This document shows, one piece after another, positions 33,338 to 42,610 of a stretch of 64,000 bases of DNA; within the stretch, counting starts at the first letter, position 1, and every line of letters begins with the position of its first letter. Position numbers and translations under genes: made by a program. The DNA comes from Bdellovibrionales bacterium (GTDB taxonomy: Bacteria > Bdellovibrionota > Bdellovibrionia > Bdellovibrionales > UBA1609). The notes beneath the pieces were generated by a model. It was given only the letters and a program-made list of their open reading frames with translations. It ran no database searches and was not told the DNA's origin. The stretch is from positions 62,001-126,000 of the forward strand of contig DAIDIG010000003.1 in the NCBI GenBank assembly GCA_027459485.1. The letters run 5' to 3'.

Positions 33338-34086
33338 AATTTACCCGCAACATCCGGTTGATCTTCAGCTGCACGCGCACGATACGCTCCGGCTAAAACA
33401 TCGGGCTTCAGCATCGCCTGCTTTTCGCCTACGAGGATGCGCCCATCAAAGGTAATCAAGGCGACGCGTCTCGCATATCGCTCGATCGTGCTCAAGAGGT
33501 GGGTCACAAAAACGACGGTGGTTTGCTTTGTCGTTTGAAGCTCGGTGAGAAGCTCCATAATCGCGCGTTCGGAATTCACATCCATCCCGTTAGTCGGCTC
33601 ATCCAATAACAAAATCTGCGGCTCCGAAGCGAGGGCGCGCGCAATAAGTACGCGTTGCTTTTGACCGCCCGAGAGATTGCGATAGGGCGTGTCGGCGAAG
33701 GCCTCCATCCGTGTTTGCGCGAGACTGTCGAGAGCGATTTTGCGATCAAGTGTTCGCGGTCGCCGTAGTGGCCCGAGTCGGCCATAACGGCCCATGATTG
33801 CGACCTCGACTGCCGTCAGCGGATAGTGCAGATCCAAGCTTTCTCGCTGAGGTACGTAACCGAAAAGCCCAGCACCTGGCTTAACCGACGATGCGACATC
33901 GATTCGACCGGCCAAAGGTTTCAATAATCCCAGTAGCGTCTTAAGTAACGTCGTCTTGCCAGCCCCGTTTGGCCCCATGATCCCCAAAAAATCTCCGCGT
34001 TCAATGGCGATATCAATCGAATGTAAAACCACGTGTTGACCGTAGCCGACACTCAGACTGCGCGATCGTAAAAGTTCATCCGCCAT
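33334..34086 (-). CDS. metal ABC transporter ATPase (ZnuC/MntB type)
   Basis: A 250-residue ABC ATPase with Walker A GPNGAGKTT near residue 38, Q-loop VPQRESLD, signature LSGGQKQR, Walker B ILLLDEPTNGMD and a switch His in VTHLLS. Length and the RESLDLHYPLTAVEVAIMGR stretch match ATPases of zinc/manganese ABC importers. It lies between the binding protein and the permease, sharing bases with both, so the transporter is complete. It drives import through the permease on the cytosolic side. Confidence 0.9.
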   Translation of the reverse strand: MADELLRSRSLSVGYGQHVVLHSIDIAIERGDFLGIMGPNGAGKTTLLKTLLGLLKPLAGRIDVASSVKPGAGLFGYVPQRESLDLHYPLTAVEVAIMGRYGRLGPLRRPRTLDRKIALDSLAQTRMEAFADTPYRNLSGGQKQRVLIARALASEPQILLLDEPTNGMDVNSERAIMELLTELQTTKQTTVVFVTHLLSTIERYARRVALITFDGRILVGEKQAMLKPDVLAGAYRARAAEDQPDVAGKL

Positions 34087-35030
34087 TACGATTTACCGGA
34101 GCCTCTCTTGCCGCCCGCTAAAGCCGCGGCCACATGGCTCACGATGTAATCGAGCATTGAAATATAATCGGTTTCTTTCGAATTTAGACCGATATCATAC
34201 AATGACAAACTCACGTACGGGCATCCGATGCCTTTGGCGACGGTTTGGCCGATCGAAACATTGTAGTACGGCTCGGTAATGACTAATTTCACCTTCGCGG
34301 ATTTACCCGCTTGAATCACGTTTTCAATGCGACGGGGCGACGGCACGAAACCTGGCTTCTCTTCAATCGTTCCGGGCGGGTTGGGGATGACGAACCCAAA
34401 TGCGTGGCCAAAGTAATCCCACGATTCGTGGTAGGGCAAAATCGCTTCGCTTTTGTACGGAGCCAGTTCTTTGCGCCATTTCTTTTCGGCTTTGGTCAAT
34501 TTCGACTCGAACGTGGCCAAATTCTTTTTAAATAAAGCTTTGTCGGTGGCGTCGGCAAACGCGAGCACTTTCTCAATATTGCGGGCCATGATGCGCCCGT
34601 CTTCAGGGTCGAGTTGGAAATGCGGATTGCCATACGGATGAATATCACCAAAGCTGTAATCGATTCGACCTTTGGGTTTATCAAGTAGTTGGATGCCCTT
34701 GTAAATCTGTGCCTTGATTAAATTTGGATTATTGGCCGAGGCGAGCAAATCGCGCGCCCAATCTTCGAGATTGAGACCGATCATCATGAAAACTTTGGCG
34801 CGGTGAACTTTGAAAAGATCTTGCGGCCGAGGCGAATACCCATCGGCGTCGAAACCGGCAGGTGACAACGAAATGACCGCAACTTTATCGCCACCTATGG
34901 TCCGCACCAGTGAGCCGATGTAAACAGTGGTTGCCACGACCGAAAGGCGTTCTGCTTTTGCGGTTGATGCAAGGGCCGGCGCTACAGCGGCCACAATCAG
35001 TAGAATAAAAAATTTTTTAAAGTGTAACAT
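34086..35030 (-). CDS. metal-binding solute-binding protein (ZnuA/MntC family)
   Basis: A 314-residue exported protein of cluster A-I binding proteins. The signal peptide ends near STAKA. Of the four usual metal ligands, His137 (GNPHFQLDP), His201 (PYHESWDYF) and Asp279 (LYDIG) are present. The first, normally in DPHxYEP, is replaced: the segment reads DADGYSPRP with Asp63 at the His position. There is no His-rich loop, unlike many ZnuA proteins. This may shift metal choice towards Mn or Fe. It is coupled to the ATPase gene. Confidence 0.82.
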   Translation of the reverse strand: MLHFKKFFILLIVAAVAPALASTAKAERLSVVATTVYIGSLVRTIGGDKVAVISLSPAGFDADGYSPRPQDLFKVHRAKVFMMIGLNLEDWARDLLASANNPNLIKAQIYKGIQLLDKPKGRIDYSFGDIHPYGNPHFQLDPEDGRIMARNIEKVLAFADATDKALFKKNLATFESKLTKAEKKWRKELAPYKSEAILPYHESWDYFGHAFGFVIPNPPGTIEEKPGFVPSPRRIENVIQAGKSAKVKLVITEPYYNVSIGQTVAKGIGCPYVSLSLYDIGLNSKETDYISMLDYIVSHVAAALAGGKRGSGKS

Positions 35031-35059
35031 GAGCCGCCTCCGATATATTTTTTTAGGAT

Positions 35060-36235
35060 TTACTCCAGCTGTTTCAGATTACCCATTGAGAACGTCGCTT
35101 GCAAATCCACTTCGTCAATCGGTTTTTCGCTGCCCATTGCTGTCGTGTGAGTGTATTGGATGCGAAGCCGGGTGTTATCGGATACGAACCAACTGAAATT
35201 GGGGGCAAAACTCGTGTTGCTGCCATCGGTCGGCGCGCCCGGAAAGGCGTCTGGGAAAATCCCAAGCTGTGACTGTTGTGTCAAGGGGCCGGGCGCCTGA
35301 ACCCAGTCCACCAAAAACCCGAGGTGATAAAAAAGAGCGAAATTGTAATCTAAGAAGGTGTAAAATCCTTGGCGAGATGATGCGTATGTCGAGTCTTGTC
35401 TCTGCGCAAACATGCCCTCCGCACTCCACGTGACAATCTGACGCTGCGACGGAGCAAGCTCGAGCTGAAAATAGGGGTCAATGAGAAGTTCGGTGCCGCC
35501 GTATGGGCACGGCCCCTGAGCAACGCTCGCCCCCAGCTCCAGCGATCCTGTTTCAAATACATCATGCGCATAATCCAGAGTGGCTAAGTAAGTCAGCGGA
35601 ACCGCCGAACTGTTTTGCATCGTGGCCCCCAACATATCCCCTCGGCCCACACTTAGATACGCCTTCAAATTGATATCACCCGGTGTCGGCACGACAAAGT
35701 CGAGCTGGGCGCCGTTGTCACTGAGCCCATCGCCCAAGTAGTCCGCAATCGCGCGGGGCCGATTGAACATCGCCAATTGAAACGTGTCCGTTTCGTCTAA
35801 GAGGCCAAACCTTGGCTTATACCTTCCGACTTTCAATGCAAGCCCGGCCGGTAGCTTGTTGAAATAGACCCAAGCCTCTTCGACATTTGGCACGTTCGCG
35901 GTGCTGCCGCCGCCGTTTGGCAAATCAATCGAGAGCTGGGCATCGGTAAATGGATCGATACGCGAGTTCGCAATGAACTGACCATCGCGCAAACCCGGCT
36001 GTTGCGACAAAGTACTATAGCGCGGGTCGCTCGAAGACATCGAATCGCGACTAAAGCCAAAATCACCGGCGATGCCGATATCCGGTAAGAATATTTTAGG
36101 CACACCCTGGACGGACGGCACAATTAGGCTACTGGCGTCGTCCGATGTTGGATTTGGCGCGTCTTGCGCCTGAACCAATTGGCTACTGGCAACGGCCGCA
36201 ATTAAGAAGATAAAAACAAACGTGCTGCAGTTCAT
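35060..36235 (-). CDS. porin-like outer-membrane protein of the metal uptake unit
   Basis: A 391-residue exported protein. The signal peptide ends at VQA-QD. Beta-strand-rich porin features follow, including WVYFNKLPAGLALKVGRYKPRFGL, a stretch typical of phosphate-selective-type porins, and a terminal strand TFSMGNLKQLE. It lies 29 bases upstream of the metal-binding protein gene in the same direction and is the probable first gene of that unit. An outer-membrane pore made with a metal ABC importer suggests dedicated metal entry. No plug or TonB box is seen. The 148-base upstream region has no Fur/Zur box I can name. Confidence 0.7.
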   Translation of the reverse strand: MNCSTFVFIFLIAAVASSQLVQAQDAPNPTSDDASSLIVPSVQGVPKIFLPDIGIAGDFGFSRDSMSSSDPRYSTLSQQPGLRDGQFIANSRIDPFTDAQLSIDLPNGGGSTANVPNVEEAWVYFNKLPAGLALKVGRYKPRFGLLDETDTFQLAMFNRPRAIADYLGDGLSDNGAQLDFVVPTPGDINLKAYLSVGRGDMLGATMQNSSAVPLTYLATLDYAHDVFETGSLELGASVAQGPCPYGGTELLIDPYFQLELAPSQRQIVTWSAEGMFAQRQDSTYASSRQGFYTFLDYNFALFYHLGFLVDWVQAPGPLTQQSQLGIFPDAFPGAPTDGSNTSFAPNFSWFVSDNTRLRIQYTHTTAMGSEKPIDEVDLQATFSMGNLKQLE

Positions 36236-36383: not shown

Positions 36384-36731
36384 ATGAAAGTGTCATTGTT
36401 TTTTTTATTGGTATTTCTCGTGCTTTCATCTTTGGCAATGACCAAAATCAACAGCCTGCCGGTCGTGGCGCCGAGAGTTTCGGTCACGCACGAAGTGACG
36501 AAACAAGATATGACCCTCACCATTAGAGGCGACGGCGCCATTTACTTAAATAAAACGGCGACAACGCTTAAGGCGCTGGGGCCGTTACTCGCCCGTGAAA
36601 TGCACAAACACCCGCAAGGAATTGTGGTAGTGAAGGCCGATGCATCCGCAAATTACGCGCTTGTTGTAAAAGCGATGAATGAAGCGCGCCAAATCGGCAT
36701 TCGTCAATTCGCGCTCGCTTCAGACGACTAG
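36384..36731 (+). CDS. orphan TolR/ExbD-like periplasmic domain protein
   Basis: A 115-residue protein with one N-terminal hydrophobic helix (about 4-19) and a TolR/ExbD-type periplasmic domain (LTIRGDGAIYLNKTATTL, GIVVVKADASANYALVVKAMNEAR). It lacks the cytoplasmic N-terminal tail and the aspartate inside the helix that proton-using TolR proteins carry, so it probably does not power a motor. No TolQ partner is adjacent. Its stop overlaps the convergent Hpt gene by four bases. It could be a peptidoglycan-binding or accessory domain. Confidence 0.6.
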   Translation: MKVSLFFLLVFLVLSSLAMTKINSLPVVAPRVSVTHEVTKQDMTLTIRGDGAIYLNKTATTLKALGPLLAREMHKHPQGIVVVKADASANYALVVKAMNEARQIGIRQFALASDD

Positions 36732-37231
36732 TGAGTATTGAGCCACTCGGTAAGAGCGGCGTTGCCTCTCGCAATTTCAATCGCTAAGAGCCGCACGGCT
36801 CGCGCAAAAACATCATCGGTCATATTGGCTTGTTCAATTTGTTGCAAAATAGCCGAAACGCGATCGAGACCCAAATTGCCGCTGCTCGATTTTAACGAGT
36901 GAATGTGGCGGGCGATGTCGCCTTGTACGGTTTCTGTGCCGGGCGATCCAAGTCGTTCGCAGAGTTGATGGATCGCATGTGCTGAAAACTCAAAGTACAT
37001 CGTAATCAGCTTCTTCGTCAGCTCACCGGTTGAATCAAGCTCATTGAGACGCTCCAACATCGAACGGTTGAGAACGGATTCTTGGCCCTCCCAATTAAGG
37101 GGTAGGACATTCTCGAGTATCACCATGCCCGGCAGGCGGTTGGCGGCTGGCTTCTGGCTCACGGGGGTTAAACTACAATTATTGAGAGTGTAGGCTCCTG
37201 TCGGCAGTTGAATCGCGTTATCGTTGAACAT
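36728..37231 (-). CDS. histidine phosphotransfer (Hpt) domain protein
   Basis: A 167-residue cytosolic protein from ATG 37231, chosen because GGAG stands seven bases upstream; a longer form from 37300 lacks this. Residues about 60-165 form the Hpt helical bundle with the phospho-accepting His111 in HIHSLKSSSGNLG. The N-terminal 50 residues are not recognised. Hpt proteins pass phosphate between a kinase or receiver and another receiver. Two receiver proteins are encoded divergently next door, which suggests one relay. No kinase gene is in the window. Confidence 0.82.
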   Translation of the reverse strand: MFNDNAIQLPTGAYTLNNCSLTPVSQKPAANRLPGMVILENVLPLNWEGQESVLNRSMLERLNELDSTGELTKKLITMYFEFSAHAIHQLCERLGSPGTETVQGDIARHIHSLKSSSGNLGLDRVSAILQQIEQANMTDDVFARAVRLLAIEIARGNAALTEWLNTH

Positions 37232-37519
37232 CGGACTTCTCCTCTGTAGGTGGTCCGTATTTAAATCCTGTCGAGCGATTATAACAGACATTTTGCTCAT
37301 GGCAGGTTCGTCGTAAACAAAACTTTACCCTGTCTTGAATTTTGACAAAAATGTCTAAACTTTTGACGACATAACTCACTTACGGTGGACCAATAATGGC
37401 ACCCTCCATGTAAAAATGGCCGCTCAACAATTTTACGTCTGTGAGGCTTTACGGTCTTAAGGTATATTGCACTTCTGTAGAGATAAAAACGCAATTCAAG
37501 CCCTAGCAAGGAGCGAAAA

Positions 37520-38236
37520 ATGCAAAAGATCTTATGCGTAGACGATGCCCCCGATGTTCTCTTAATGATGGAACAAATCTTTCAAGGCTACGATTACAGT
37601 CTCGCGAGTTCGCTCAAACAGGCCTCCGGCTTGATCGACCGCACGAAATATTCAGTGATCCTATTGGATGTGGAGTTGCCCGACGGATCGGGTTTCGATT
37701 TCATGACATCGGCGCCAGGCCGGTTAAACGGCAGCCAAGTGATTTTTTTGACGGGGCGAAACGACATTGCCAGTAAGGCGAGTGCATTTTCTCTCGGTGC
37801 CGATGATTACGTTGTTAAACCGTTCGACCCGACCGAATTGAAGTTTCGCGTCGATGCGAAGCTCAGAAAGGCGGCTTCGAGCGCCAACCAGCAGTCCATT
37901 TTGCGCGTCGGCGGTCTTACCTGTAATTTACAAGACCAAACGGTATGCAAAACAGAGTCCGGCTCATTGCTCGACCTGACATTTATTGAATTTAAAATAT
38001 TCCGCCTCTTGGCCTCGACCCCTAATAAAATCTTTTCGCGCTCTGAAATTTTGGATCGCGTCTGGGGTCATGCCGTTTCGGTGACCGATCGCGTGGTCGA
38101 CGTGCATATTTCAAATTTACGAAAGAAAATCAGTGATGGTGGAGTTACGATCGAAGCCGTCATCGGCACGGGGTATCGTGTCGTGAATGCTCCGGCTCCA
38201 ACATCGGGCGCGGACGAAGATGTCAAATTACACTAG
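37520..38236 (+). CDS. OmpR/PhoB-family response regulator
   Basis: A 238-residue regulator with a receiver domain (residues 1-118, acidic DD at 8-9, phospho-acceptor Asp50 in ILLDVELPDGSG, Lys100 in VVKPF) and a winged-helix DNA-binding domain (about 130-230, with DLTFIEFKIFRLLAS and VWGHAVSVTDRVVDVHISNL). The ribosome site AAGGAG precedes the ATG. It overlaps the next receiver gene by 17 bases and is divergent from the Hpt gene, over 288 bases. It probably controls genes on receipt of phosphate from the Hpt protein or an unlinked kinase. Confidence 0.9.
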   Translation: MQKILCVDDAPDVLLMMEQIFQGYDYSLASSLKQASGLIDRTKYSVILLDVELPDGSGFDFMTSAPGRLNGSQVIFLTGRNDIASKASAFSLGADDYVVKPFDPTELKFRVDAKLRKAASSANQQSILRVGGLTCNLQDQTVCKTESGSLLDLTFIEFKIFRLLASTPNKIFSRSEILDRVWGHAVSVTDRVVDVHISNLRKKISDGGVTIEAVIGTGYRVVNAPAPTSGADEDVKLH

Positions 38237-38621
38237 GGCTGATGAAAAACATTGCCTGTCGGGTCTGAAGGTTCTGCTAGCCGATGACTCGCCAGATAAT
38301 CAGTTGATCGTCAGTTTCATGCTCAAATCGGCGGGCGCGGAAGTGGCGGTTGTAGACAACGGCCAGGCCGCGCTCGATCAACTGCGCGAAAAAAAATACG
38401 ACGTCGTTTTGATGGATCTGCAAATGCCTGTTATGGACGGCTTCGAAGCTTTGACCCAGCTGCGCAACCGAGGCAACCGCACCCCGGTCATCGCCTTGAC
38501 CGCCCATACGATGAGCGACGAGCGGCAAAAATGTCTTGAAAGCGGTTTCACCGAACATATCGCAAAACCGATTGATCAAACCACCTTACTTGAACAGTTG
38601 TCTTCGTTTGTTGTACAATAA
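38220..38621 (+). CDS. single-domain response regulator (CheY-like receiver)
   Basis: A 133-residue protein from ATG 38220, inside the end of the previous gene. It has one receiver domain: Asp22-Asp23, phospho-acceptor Asp66 in VVLMDLQMPVMDG, Thr in ALTAHTM and Lys116 in IAKPID. The MDLQMPVMDGFEA block is typical of receivers that work with Hpt domains in hybrid-kinase relays. No output domain is present, so it is likely a phosphate carrier or protein-binding switch paired with the Hpt protein across the spacer. Confidence 0.87.
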   Translation: MSNYTRADEKHCLSGLKVLLADDSPDNQLIVSFMLKSAGAEVAVVDNGQAALDQLREKKYDVVLMDLQMPVMDGFEALTQLRNRGNRTPVIALTAHTMSDERQKCLESGFTEHIAKPIDQTTLLEQLSSFVVQ

Positions 38622-38667
38622 ATAAGTCGCCGCGAGCGGTTCATAGATCGACAGTCCGGGGGGCCAC

Positions 38668-39318
38668 ATTCACATCGAGATCGAACGGGTCACCGTCGTT
38701 TTACCGAACGGGCGTAAGCTGTACGAGATAGCCCACCATCGCTTTGAATTCGGGCAACACATTCTAGTAAAAGGCGATAGCGGCACGGGCAAGACTACGT
38801 TCTTGCATATGTTGGCTGGGCTTTTTCTGCCGACAACGGGTCGCGTGACGGTCGGCGACCATGATTTGACGGCCATGGCAGACGCGCACCGCTGTCAATT
38901 GCGCCGCCGACATGTGGGCCTCGTTTTTCAAAAGCTGAATTTGCTTGATCATCTGACGGCCACTGAAAATATCATCCTCGCTGGGGGGGTGACGCGCGAA
39001 CGTGCGACTGAGGCTCTCAAAGCCGTCCAGCTATCGGGCCGCGAAAACGATCGCGCCGCGTGGCTCAGTGTCGGCGAGCAGCAACGAATTGCCGTCGCCC
39101 GTGTGTTGGCTGGTGAGCCGGATCTTTTGTTCGCCGACGAGCCGACCTCAAGCCTCGACAATCGCAATGCGCAGTTTGTGATCGACGCGTTATTAAAGGC
39201 GGCCAAAGGTAAAACCCTCATCGTCGTGAGCCATGATCAGCGGGTGGCCTCGTCATTTGAGCACGTCATCGAATTCGATCGCTGGGCGGTTCATAGCAAA
39301 GCGAAAGGCCCCACATGA
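38668..39318 (+). CDS. LolD/MacB-type ABC ATPase, non-standard start codon
   Basis: About 216 residues if translation begins at ATT 38668. The frame has an upstream stop at 38644-38646, and no ATG, GTG or TTG stands before the essential first strand. Walker A is GDSGTGKT (36-43), the Q-loop is VFQKLNL, the signature is altered to LSVGEQQR, Walker B is DLLFADEPTSSLD and the switch is VVSHD. A G-run at 38658-38663 may be the ribosome site; ATC 38674 is an alternative start. It is coupled by ATGA to an FtsX-like permease, the LolCDE/MacB export arrangement. Confidence 0.75.
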   Translation: MHIEIERVTVVLPNGRKLYEIAHHRFEFGQHILVKGDSGTGKTTFLHMLAGLFLPTTGRVTVGDHDLTAMADAHRCQLRRRHVGLVFQKLNLLDHLTATENIILAGGVTRERATEALKAVQLSGRENDRAAWLSVGEQQRIAVARVLAGEPDLLFADEPTSSLDNRNAQFVIDALLKAAKGKTLIVVSHDQRVASSFEHVIEFDRWAVHSKAKGPT

Positions 39319-40562
39319 GCTCGATTCGACTCGCTTGGTTGAGCCTTATTCGCCGCCCGCTCTCAACAACTCTGGCGCTCGCGGCGATTGCGCTTGCCGT
39401 TGGCGGTTGCGGGGTTCTACTGCGACTTTATCAGCTTGAACAAAACCGTTTCTCGACGATCGCCCGCGGCAGCGACGCTATTATCGGGGCTAAAGCCGAT
39501 GGCCTTGATATTTTGCTCGGGGCTCTCGACGCGGAAGGGAAATACCCAGGCTTCTTACCCTACAAACTCTTTGAAACCATGCAAGCGAGGGCGAGCGTTC
39601 GATTCGAAGACGGCGCCGATGTGAATCAAAATTATCTCAAACAGGTGACACCGTTTCTTTACTGCGCCAAAGCCGGTCGCTTTCGCGTCGTTGCAACTGA
39701 CTCCACCATTTTTAGTTGGCCCAATTACAGTCTCACTTTCGCGTCAGGCCGCTTTATCGATGAACCCGATCAACCGGGCCACGTGGTTTTAGGCGCCGTC
39801 GTCGCGCGCCGTATGAATCTCAAAATCGGCGACACCGTTGATCTCACGCCTTGGGTTGGCAATACCAAAACGCCGGTGCCACAAATGGGTCAATCATTCA
39901 CCGTTTCAGGAGTGCTCAATTCGACGCACTCGAGTTGGGATCGCCTTTTATTTACGACGATTGCCGATGGGCAAAAACTGATCGCGAACGAACCAAGTCT
40001 CAGCCAACACAGCATATGGGGCAATAACGTTCTCAACTATATGTTGGTGGATTTGCCCGCCGACGGGTACGGGCCGATACAAAACCTCATCAACAAACGA
40101 ACGGTCGGCCAGGTGGTTTTCACCCGCGCTGAAAAAAAACATCTTCGCGAACTGACGGGCACGGGGCAATCGATTGGCACGATGATTTCAATTTTGGTTA
40201 TACTTCTCGGCGGATTGGCGGTGGCATCTATGCTCGTCGCGCGATTCGATGCGATGGGCGTCCAGCTCGCGGTGTTGCGAGCGCTCGGTTATAGTCGTTT
40301 TCAAGTGGCGCTCGCGCTGCTTTCTGAGGGTTTTTTATTGGGAGTCGCGGCGTGCGCTATTGGGTCTATGATTGACATGGCGACCTTTCCGATGATGCGA
40401 TGGGTACTGGGCAGTGCGCTGCCTTCACCCGATATTGTTTCGTCAACCATTTGGCAGAGCGCTCCGGTGTGGTTAGCGGCTGTTTTAGCCACCACCGCGT
40501 CGGTGTTTTTACCCGTCATTAAACTGTACAACCAAGATATTCACACTTCGCTACGAAATTAG
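39315..40562 (+). CDS. FtsX-like ABC permease (MacB/LolC type)
   Basis: A 415-residue inner-membrane protein. The first helix lies at about 17-37, a large periplasmic domain at about 40-280, and three more helices in the C-terminal third (TMISILVILLGGLAVASML, FLLGVAACAIGSM, WLAAVLATTASVFLPVI). This is the MacB/FtsX topology with four helices. The LAVLRALGYSRFQVALALLSEG segment is the cytosolic coupling loop for the ATPase. It is translated through ATGA overlap with that gene. Substrate may be a lipoprotein or peptide; no membrane-fusion gene is adjacent. Confidence 0.85.
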   Translation: MSSIRLAWLSLIRRPLSTTLALAAIALAVGGCGVLLRLYQLEQNRFSTIARGSDAIIGAKADGLDILLGALDAEGKYPGFLPYKLFETMQARASVRFEDGADVNQNYLKQVTPFLYCAKAGRFRVVATDSTIFSWPNYSLTFASGRFIDEPDQPGHVVLGAVVARRMNLKIGDTVDLTPWVGNTKTPVPQMGQSFTVSGVLNSTHSSWDRLLFTTIADGQKLIANEPSLSQHSIWGNNVLNYMLVDLPADGYGPIQNLINKRTVGQVVFTRAEKKHLRELTGTGQSIGTMISILVILLGGLAVASMLVARFDAMGVQLAVLRALGYSRFQVALALLSEGFLLGVAACAIGSMIDMATFPMMRWVLGSALPSPDIVSSTIWQSAPVWLAAVLATTASVFLPVIKLYNQDIHTSLRN

Positions 40563-40596
40563 CCCATTGACCTTTTACAGTAGCCTGCTACCGTTT

Positions 40597-41172
40597 ATGG
40601 TCATGGGCGACTCTCTGCGGATTCGTGCGGCTCGAGAATCGGATGCGTTGGCCATCCGCGAGTTCGCCGATCGAAATATCGGCGCCGATTACTTTACACC
40701 TGAAAAAGTGCAGACGATTTTACACGCCTCGCGCTGGCGCCATACAATGTGCTCATTCGTGCTCGAAAACTCCGAGACCGCGACAATCGAAGGTATTCGA
40801 CTGACCTATCCGCCGGGGCAATGGCCCGAGCGACATCCCAGCCAGCCGATTCACGCGCACCTCTGGCGAGTGCCCGTCGGCCAGACCGCTTATTTTCAAA
40901 GCTTATTCATATCAAAGCGCTATCAAAATTGCGGTTGGGGCAAGCGGCTTTCAATGGCATCAATCGAGATGCTGCGCCAAACGAATGCGCGCGCCGTGGT
41001 TTGTCACTCTTGGGACGAGTCGCCGAGCAATTCTTCGAGACGTTATTTAAATGCGCTTGGTTTTGAAGCGGTGGTTTCAATACCAAACTTTTGGCAGCAA
41101 ATTGATTACGAGTGCCCACGGTGTGGCCGGGGGTGCGAGTGTACGGCAACTGAAATGATTTTATATATTTAA
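40597..41172 (+). CDS. GNAT-family N-acetyltransferase with C-terminal Cys cluster
   Basis: About 191 residues from ATG 40597; ATG 40603 or TTG 40567 are also possible because no ribosome site is clear. The acetyl-CoA motif is FISKRYQNCGWGKRLSMASIEML (Q-x-x-G-x-G form), with the second half ARAVVCHSWD..RRYLNALGF. The C-terminus carries CPRCGRGCECTATEM, four cysteines that could hold zinc. Substrate unknown. It lies 10 bases upstream of the oxidoreductase gene and may be co-transcribed with it. Confidence 0.78.
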   Translation: MVMGDSLRIRAARESDALAIREFADRNIGADYFTPEKVQTILHASRWRHTMCSFVLENSETATIEGIRLTYPPGQWPERHPSQPIHAHLWRVPVGQTAYFQSLFISKRYQNCGWGKRLSMASIEMLRQTNARAVVCHSWDESPSNSSRRYLNALGFEAVVSIPNFWQQIDYECPRCGRGCECTATEMILYI

Positions 41173-41182
41173 GGAGTCAGCA

Positions 41183-42349
41183 ATGAGCATTTCATATTGG
41201 CAGGATCAAGCGGGAGCAAAAACAAAAACCTGCGACGTTGCGATCGTCGGAGGCGGAGTCACAGGTTTATCCGTCGCATACTGGTTAAAGCGTGAAGACC
41301 CAAGCCTCAACGTGCTTCTTCTCGAAAAAGGCGGATCGCTCGGCGCAGGTGCCACGGGGCGCAATGCAGGTTTCATCACGTGCGGTTCGGTTGAACATTT
41401 TAACCGGCTTTATGAGCGCTGGGGCGAAGAGCGAGCTCTCGATATCTGGCGATTTTCTGAGAAAAATCTCGATCTTCTGCGCGAACACATCATACAAGAT
41501 GACAGTGAGCTCGAGTTCGATGACCATGGCACATTTTCTCTTGCCTCGACGGATGAGGAGTTTCATGAGCTCAAAAAAACCTCAGAGCTAATGCAAAAAC
41601 TCGACATCGCCGTTGAAGTGTTGCACGAGCAAGACATTCTAAAACGGCTCGATGCGCGAAATTTCGTCGGTGGCATCAAATATCTGAAGGACGCATCCAT
41701 TCATCCGCTCAAACTGCTTAAAAAAATGGCCGCGCGTACCGATGTTGTCATAGTACCCGATGCCGAAGTTTTCTCGATTGAATCTATCAATGGCGGCGGC
41801 ACACGCTTACGCACGCAAAATTTCAACGTTGAATCGACTATCGCAGTCCTTACACTAAACGGGTACTCGGCGGCGCTGAACCCGTACTTTCGTGACAAAA
41901 TTTACCCGACGCGCGGGCAAATCATGGTCACCGAGCCGGTCGCCCCGTTTATGGAAGGGCCCTGCTACGCAAACTTCGTATTGGATTACTTTCGCCAACT
42001 CGAAGATGGCCGAGTGCTGATCGGGGGCTTTCGTCAACTAGAAAGGGCAACTGAAGTCGGTTATTCAGATCACATTACAGACACAATTCAAGCGGCGCTC
42101 TACGACTTTTTACAAAAGCACTTACCTAAGTTGGAAAATCGAAAAGTCACACACCGTTGGGCCGGTGTCATGGGTTTTTCGGCTGATGGGCAGCCGCTCG
42201 TGGGCTCACTCCCCGAAGAGCCATCTGTTTACTTCGCCGGCGGCTTCACGGGGCATGGCCTTGGTCTCGCGTTTCATTCGGCAAAAGTCTTGGTTGATTT
42301 GATCAACGGACGCGATATACCCTCTTTTGTTTCGGCTCGGAGGTTTTGA
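41183..42349 (+). CDS. DAO-family FAD-dependent oxidoreductase (amine/amino-acid oxidase-like)
   Basis: A 388-residue enzyme with AAGGAG before its ATG. The FAD fold is VAIVGGGVTGLSVAYWL at residues 18-34. GAGATGRNAGFITCG is typical of PuuB/DadA-type DAO enzymes, and a C-terminal FAGGFTGHGLGLAFHSAKVL closes the fold. These enzymes oxidise primary or secondary amines such as gamma-glutamylputrescine or D-amino acids. No signal peptide is seen. The exact substrate is open. The stop TGA abuts the TTG of the cold shock gene. Confidence 0.85.
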   Translation: MSISYWQDQAGAKTKTCDVAIVGGGVTGLSVAYWLKREDPSLNVLLLEKGGSLGAGATGRNAGFITCGSVEHFNRLYERWGEERALDIWRFSEKNLDLLREHIIQDDSELEFDDHGTFSLASTDEEFHELKKTSELMQKLDIAVEVLHEQDILKRLDARNFVGGIKYLKDASIHPLKLLKKMAARTDVVIVPDAEVFSIESINGGGTRLRTQNFNVESTIAVLTLNGYSAALNPYFRDKIYPTRGQIMVTEPVAPFMEGPCYANFVLDYFRQLEDGRVLIGGFRQLERATEVGYSDHITDTIQAALYDFLQKHLPKLENRKVTHRWAGVMGFSADGQPLVGSLPEEPSVYFAGGFTGHGLGLAFHSAKVLVDLINGRDIPSFVSARRF

Positions 42350-42610
42350 TTGAGCGATGACAATTCGAAAAGACCGGACGGTGCGGAGCCACGCATGGGC
42401 GCGAAGTACACGGGCACAGTAAAATGGTTCAATGAGCAAAAAGGCTACGGTTTTATCGAACAAGAAAATGGACGAGACTTGTTCGTTCACTACAAAGAAA
42501 TTCGCGGCAAATTAAACCCTGGAGACAAAGTCGAGTACGTTTTAGGTGAGGGGCGCAAAGGCCCGGCCGCCACAAAGGTGCGAGTCATCTCGCGGGCAAC
42601 ACCGGAGTAA
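42350..42610 (+). CDS. cold shock domain protein (CspA family)
   Basis: Up to 86 residues from TTG 42350, with GGAGG six bases upstream, or 71 residues from ATG 42395, with GGAG six bases upstream. The cold shock domain is intact: GTVKWFNEQKGYGFIEQ with RNP1 KGYGFI, and RNP2 LFVHY. The protein binds single-stranded RNA or DNA. The TTG follows the oxidoreductase TGA directly, so the longer form would be translationally coupled, which is odd for a Csp. The first 15 residues are acidic, hydrophilic and not part of the fold. Confidence 0.88.
   Translation: MSDDNSKRPDGAEPRMGAKYTGTVKWFNEQKGYGFIEQENGRDLFVHYKEIRGKLNPGDKVEYVLGEGRKGPAATKVRVISRATPE

Follow-up and report, generated by a model that had tools for sequence, protein, structure and literature searches.

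Genes that begin at rare codons, AUH (AUU, AUC or AUA) among them, are already known, namely infC, pcnB, ccpN and sigR, and the locus described here would add to them the gene for the ATPase of an ABC transporter. The infC gene, which encodes initiation factor IF3, is known for its AUU, AUC and AUA start codons, and the AUU start of Escherichia coli pcnB was reportedly described by Binns and Masters in 2002. According to passages of PMC5472188 and PMC13009471, an AUU start confers low initiation, which IF3 reduces further, and a strong Shine-Dalgarno sequence aids the ribosome at such a codon; in a passage of the latter, a weak start is credited with about 10% of the expression of an AUG reporter in poor medium. 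Passages of PMC5472188 also describe the GTC start of Streptomyces sigR as repressed by IF3, and state that experimental characterisation exists for very few of the non-canonical start codons. Among the titles and opening lines of abstracts listed in a literature search, none dealt with AUH starts either in ABC transporters or in relatives of Bdellovibrio; as the search covered open-licence papers only, this is weak evidence of absence.

The locus lies in a window of 64,000 nt (the whole stretch of DNA that was analysed, C3:62001-126000) from G000, the genome of a Bdellovibrionales bacterium assembled as 2.75 Mb in 34 contigs. An ABC ATPase frame extends there from stop to stop over 223 codons (38647-39318, plus strand, as for all features below unless stated), closed upstream by an in-frame TAG at 38644-38646. 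As the first-pass annotation had stated, this stop is followed by no ATG, GTG or TTG ahead of the first strand and Walker A: the first canonical in-frame codon is the TTG at 38803, past the Walker A motif GDSGTGKTT (38773-38799). Before it stand an ATT at 38668-38670, ATC codons at 38674 and 38680, and a CTG at 38719, which is residue 18 counted from the ATT. Among 314 mechanical open frames of at least 200 codons, counted in all six frames of the window and contig C2, only three, the ATPase frame included, have at least 52 codons before their first ATG, GTG or TTG. We propose, with a probability of roughly 0.86, that this is a normal, conserved ATPase gene whose translation would start at ATT 38668, read as fMet and directed by a run of G at 38658-38663, yielding a protein of 216 residues (38668-39318, with the stop TGA at 39316-39318). 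The mechanical list of open reading frames opens the gene at TTG 38803, which deprives a conserved transporter ATPase of its first strand and Walker A, and gene callers restricted to ATG, GTG and TTG shorten or miss genes with such starts.

Pfam, AlphaFold2 and Foldseek placed the product among the ABC ATPases of the LolD/MacB/YbbA type. The Pfam family ABC_tran (PF00005) matched at 100.6 bits against a gathering cut-off of 25, and the motifs GDSGTGKTT, VFQK, LSVGEQ, LLFADE and VVSHD were found, with Walker A, signature, Walker B and H-loop all present. The top Foldseek matches were YbbA, FtsE, LolD, a heme exporter ATPase and MacB. The earlier label of LolD-like holds as a fold class but not at the level of NCBIfam: the LolD model (TIGR02211) scored 146.1 bits against a curated cut-off of 307.75, and none of the 25 matches listed, out of 184, reached its curated cut-off. 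The AlphaFold2 model, built from 22 sequences, had a mean pLDDT of 93.9 (97 in the first block) and placed strand 1 at residues 3-11, beginning two residues after the ATT, so that on this model the strand would be missing with any start from CTG 38719 onwards. A shortened protein beginning at CTG 38719 or TTG 38803 has next to no likelihood. CTG is a known weak start, and TTG is canonical and the choice of a standard ORF caller, but the TTG lies past Walker A and the CTG would remove strand 1; and every ortholog with such a late canonical codon, the congener G004 excepted, has a further one no later than the column aligned with 38668.

To judge from its sequence, the stretch before TTG 38803 is protein-like. 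Between 38671 and 38802, the congener G003 has the same residue at 26 of 44 codons, and the nucleotide differences number 15, 11 and 27 at the first, second and third codon positions. An early loss of the ATG would give a gene of the same appearance, and it might be supposed that the ATPase gene is decaying after the loss of its start. Against this highly improbable course stand the 223 open codons, the intact motifs and the retained coding pattern, as well as the open permease gene that follows, the Shine-Dalgarno sequence and the same state in G004.

The orthologs were reached through this permease: of 140 genomes from the order, 24 had a permease match at E 1e-20 or better, and the ATPase alignment comprised 23, in each of which the adjacent ATPase was readable. 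G127 was left out, as its permease lay in two frames and only 48 ATPase residues were matched, and in G066 one of two permease pieces (L035) was without an ATPase. The pair in G127:C100 (L051, L054), its permease split and its ATPase partly matched, is either broken or affected by errors of assembly. Of the 23 aligned orthologs, 19 had a canonical codon in the column of ATT 38668 (ATG in 16, TTG in two, GTG in one). For 12 of the 19 this was the first canonical codon of the aligned stretch, and in seven another was present upstream, so that the column is unproven as the start of those orthologs. G072 had ACG at the column and ATG four codons upstream, and G131 had ATC there and GTG one codon upstream; only G000 (ATT) and G004 (ATC) were without a canonical codon at or before the column. 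In G131 (L043, around 3347, minus strand) the GTG stands directly before the ATC, with a Shine-Dalgarno energy of -7.9 kcal/mol, and either could be the start.

Within the genus, the start region of G004 has the sequence ATTAAGGGGGCCACATCC in the public record CAILEP010000002.1, where the window has CCGGGGGGCCACATTC, and its ATC stands in the same GGGGGCCACAT context as in the window. Translation of G004 could also begin at a TTG 11 codons downstream, at the cost of most of strand 1, which makes the rare start of G004 a strong case but not a forced one. In the closest ortholog, that of G003, the column holds ATG and a second ATG lies three codons upstream; the rare codon is therefore dispensable for function and not fixed within the genus. 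The rare state was thus found in two of the three genus genomes that carry the gene (G000 included), G003 having ATG. No comparable ATPase was seen in the other three genus genomes, where the best E values ranged from 3e-50 to 5e-55 against 4e-87 or better, two of these three being only 76-78% complete. An alignment-based contig search gave 11 loci in named records with a related permease, nine of them of Bdellovibrio type (labelled Bdellovibrionales, Bdellovibrionaceae, Pseudobdellovibrionaceae or Bdellovibrio), one titled 'bacterium' and one Streptomyces griseus; among the viral contigs searched, no relative was confirmed. The record titled Streptomyces griseus (CALQIT020000004.1, L088) carries a transporter pair of the type found in Bdellovibrio relatives, and its title looks wrong.

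The G-run seen before the ATT in the first-pass annotation proved to be an unusually strong site. The duplex of GGGGGG (38658-38663, 4 nt upstream of the ATT) with CACCUCCUU amounts to -8.9 kcal/mol, the anti-Shine-Dalgarno sequence having been confirmed only in G001, the sole genome in which the 16S 3' end was found; in G000 that end gave no exact match to the search pattern. This value and that of G004 (-8.3 before the column) were the two strongest of the 23 column energies; the next was that of G131, and the other 20 were weaker than -6, although energies taken at the column are understated for orthologs that start upstream, such as G003, whose upstream ATG follows GGGGGC at a spacing of 10 (-9.3). 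In a sample of 6000 ATT, ATC or ATA triplets, 39 reached -8.4 or better and 20 reached -8.9. Two traits of genes with AUH starts were found at this locus: an AUH codon at the start position of the orthologs behind a strong Shine-Dalgarno sequence, and no canonical codon that gives the full-length conserved protein.

Both ATT 38668 and ATC 38674 had been put forward as starts, and the ATT is preferred because it is at its column that 19 of the 23 orthologs are canonical. A start two codons downstream at ATC 38674, or four codons downstream at ATC 38680, is unlikely. The 4-nt spacing between the G-run and the ATT is short and that to ATC 38674 is 9-10 nt, with an energy of -8.4 at a spacing of 9, a distance comparable to that of the upstream ATG in G003. 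However, only two orthologs have a canonical codon at the 38674 column, both of which also have ATG at that of 38668, and the Ile or Val encoded at 38674 forms part of the conserved first strand, so that no other reason for this codon is required.

A base-call or assembly error, either in a true ATG at 38668 or through an indel that hides the start, would also account for a missing ATG, and we regard it as very unlikely. The assembly is a 34-contig draft and G-runs are prone to errors, but none of the three forward frames contains an ATG, GTG or TTG that begins within 38612-38743; a one-base indel could not, therefore, expose an existing start, and a frameshift or missing base was rejected. 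In addition, G004 likewise lacks a canonical codon up to and including the column, and in both genomes the rare codon is accompanied by an unusually strong Shine-Dalgarno sequence. The occurrence of a rare codon in both G000 and G004 points to a real unusual start and against a sequencing error. The frameshift or sequencing error that had been offered as an alternative was in this way not borne out, and the comparison with orthologs, set beforehand as its test, brought to light no ATG that one missing base in the window could restore. A change in the initiator tRNA was rejected as well: GGGCTCATAACCC was found in all six genus genomes, and at its place in G000 and G004 ARAGORN reported a tRNA-Met with an initiator-type stem and the anticodon CAT. 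Run on nine loci of a looser pattern (five of six places in G000, four of ten in G004), ARAGORN gave no tRNA in the other seven.

The ATPase gene leads directly into that of its partner. A permease of the MacB_PCD/FtsX type (415 residues, 39315-40562; Pfam PF12704 and PF02687), for which no PDB sequence match was found at E 0.01, follows with an ATGA overlap between the ATPase stop and the permease start (39315-39318), an arrangement seen in 19 of 23 orthologs, and the Shine-Dalgarno sequence before the permease ATG of the window is weak (-2.6). Together, the overlap and the weak site suggest that permease translation depends on that of the ATPase, in which case the weak codon would set both. 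Upstream neighbours differ between the genomes looked at, two response-regulator genes preceding the ATPase in the window, and the downstream genes (GNAT-like by Pfam; FAD-oxidoreductase-like and MarC-like by eye from translations) recur in G004, interspersed with other genes but in unchanged order. A promoter-like TTGAAC-18-TACAAT at 38590-38619, which would give a leader of about 40 nt, came from a consensus scan that found five such sites in 37300-42500 against 4.1 expected, within chance. The leader folded no better than shuffled sequences (z +1.28), and Rfam, over 36500-41500, gave a single match, to a lncRNA family far below the gathering score and inside the permease. Elsewhere in the window (34086-36235, minus strand), a gene for a ZnuA-like metal-binding protein adjoins an outer-membrane porin-like gene, both read by eye from translations.

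By analogy with other rare starts, throttling through IF3 would be the natural reading for the ATPase. The weak ATT would lower initiation and render it sensitive to IF3, strong Shine-Dalgarno pairing would offset the weak codon in part, and coupling at ATGA would hand the low rate on to the permease, so that both subunits would be kept scarce and in step. We infer that a low, IF3-sensitive synthesis, passed to the permease via ATGA, is the likely effect of the ATT start.

The ATPase may not be the only gene of the genus with such a start. The parallel with infC drawn in the first-pass annotation is apt: infC was found in three of six genus genomes (G000, G004 and G001), and in all three the shared Ile-Lys-Pro N-terminus, which lies behind a Shine-Dalgarno sequence, is without a canonical codon. 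The apparent starts are AAGGAGATTTTCT-ATC in G000, AGGAGTACAATT-ATC with an ATT just before it in G004, and AAGGAGAAAAAGT-ATA in G001, so that infC of these genomes seems to start at ATC (or ATT in G004) or ATA (loci L055-L057). Given a TTG 22 codons in (G000) or three codons in (G001), these are starts that we infer, and they are consistent with the known habit of infC. Self-control, which such a start serves in infC, is not expected of an ABC ATPase.

A survey by codon statistics and Shine-Dalgarno match covered 861,552 bases (31%) of G000 and 726 gene candidates; in six, an ATT, ATC, ATA or CTG preceded any canonical start by more than 10 codons and had a Shine-Dalgarno energy at least as strong as -6.0. 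Four of the six were judged real: the ATPase, infC, a receiver/PilZ-like gene and a lipoprotein-like gene with CTG. The gene at C2:223076 was rejected, as a canonical start with a Shine-Dalgarno sequence fits and the stretch ahead of the first canonical start has a negative coding score, and so was that at C1:407113 for a negative score in the same stretch; this score is negative for infC too. The lipoprotein-like gene (G000:C1:382708-384957, L139) encodes a signal peptide with no ATG, GTG or TTG before a TTG at the lipobox; CTG CTG stands behind AAGGGGG, and by eye an ATG lies nearby in G003 and G004.

The receiver/PilZ-like gene (G000:C1:299107-301557, minus strand, 816 codons; L133, relatives L134 to L138) is possibly a stronger case of a non-canonical start kept in the genus. 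Over its first 760 codons the only Pfam match was to PilZ, slightly below cut-off, 'receiver-like' having been read from the sequence. Its start column holds ATC in G000, G004, G002 and G001, ATA in G003 and GTG in G005; in each of the five genomes with ATC or ATA a Shine-Dalgarno hexamer precedes the codon by exactly 6 nt, and the stretch from the upstream stop to the column is free of canonical codons. The next one follows 16 (G000), 20 (G003), 16 (G001), four (G004) and five (G002) codons later, so that the rare start is unforced in G004 and G002. A start-codon regulon of the genus can be proposed tentatively, and with more doubt than confidence: infC, the ATPase/permease pair (in some species) and the receiver/PilZ-like gene would share AUU, AUC or AUA behind a strong Shine-Dalgarno sequence, and their output would be set jointly by the IF3-to-ribosome ratio. 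Were this true, growth state would, through that ratio, set the output of all three together. The value added by the comparison is that ATG, ATC and ATT at one column within one genus are natural controls; these, together with a second gene with ATC or ATA in five of six genomes, make IF3 control beyond IF3 itself directly testable in a non-model clade.

Set against described systems, the ATPase shares fold and motifs with those of LolD, YbbA and MacB (9ge6_B, 7v8i_D and 5lj9_B; 33-35% identity), and differs in falling under the NCBIfam cut-offs (25 of 184 matches listed), in having a single MacB_PCD/FtsX permease partner and in its start codon. With infC, whose case seems present in the same genomes, it would have in common an AUH start behind a strong Shine-Dalgarno sequence; infC, however, encodes IF3 and hence controls itself, which the ATPase cannot do. 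Like E. coli pcnB, unrelated in function, it would be a chromosomal gene besides infC limited by AUU. According to passages of PMC13009471, AUH starts also occur in Staphylococcus aureus ccpN (AUA), cvfC1 (AUU) and citZ (AUA), and ccpN and cvfC1 resemble the ATPase in their extended Shine-Dalgarno sequence and perhaps, given ATC in G004 but ATG in G003, in conservation among relatives. These S. aureus genes encode a regulator, a small protein and an enzyme, whereas the window gene encodes a transporter, and their starts were shown, in the same passages, by ribosome profiling and reporters, whereas that of the ATPase is proposed from sequence. Streptomyces sigR, as described in passages of PMC5472188, differs in its GTC start and in that its second gene has a promoter and a ribosome-binding site of its own, but it offers the parallel of a coupled pair whose first gene has a non-canonical start repressed by IF3, as would be the case for the ATPase and its permease.
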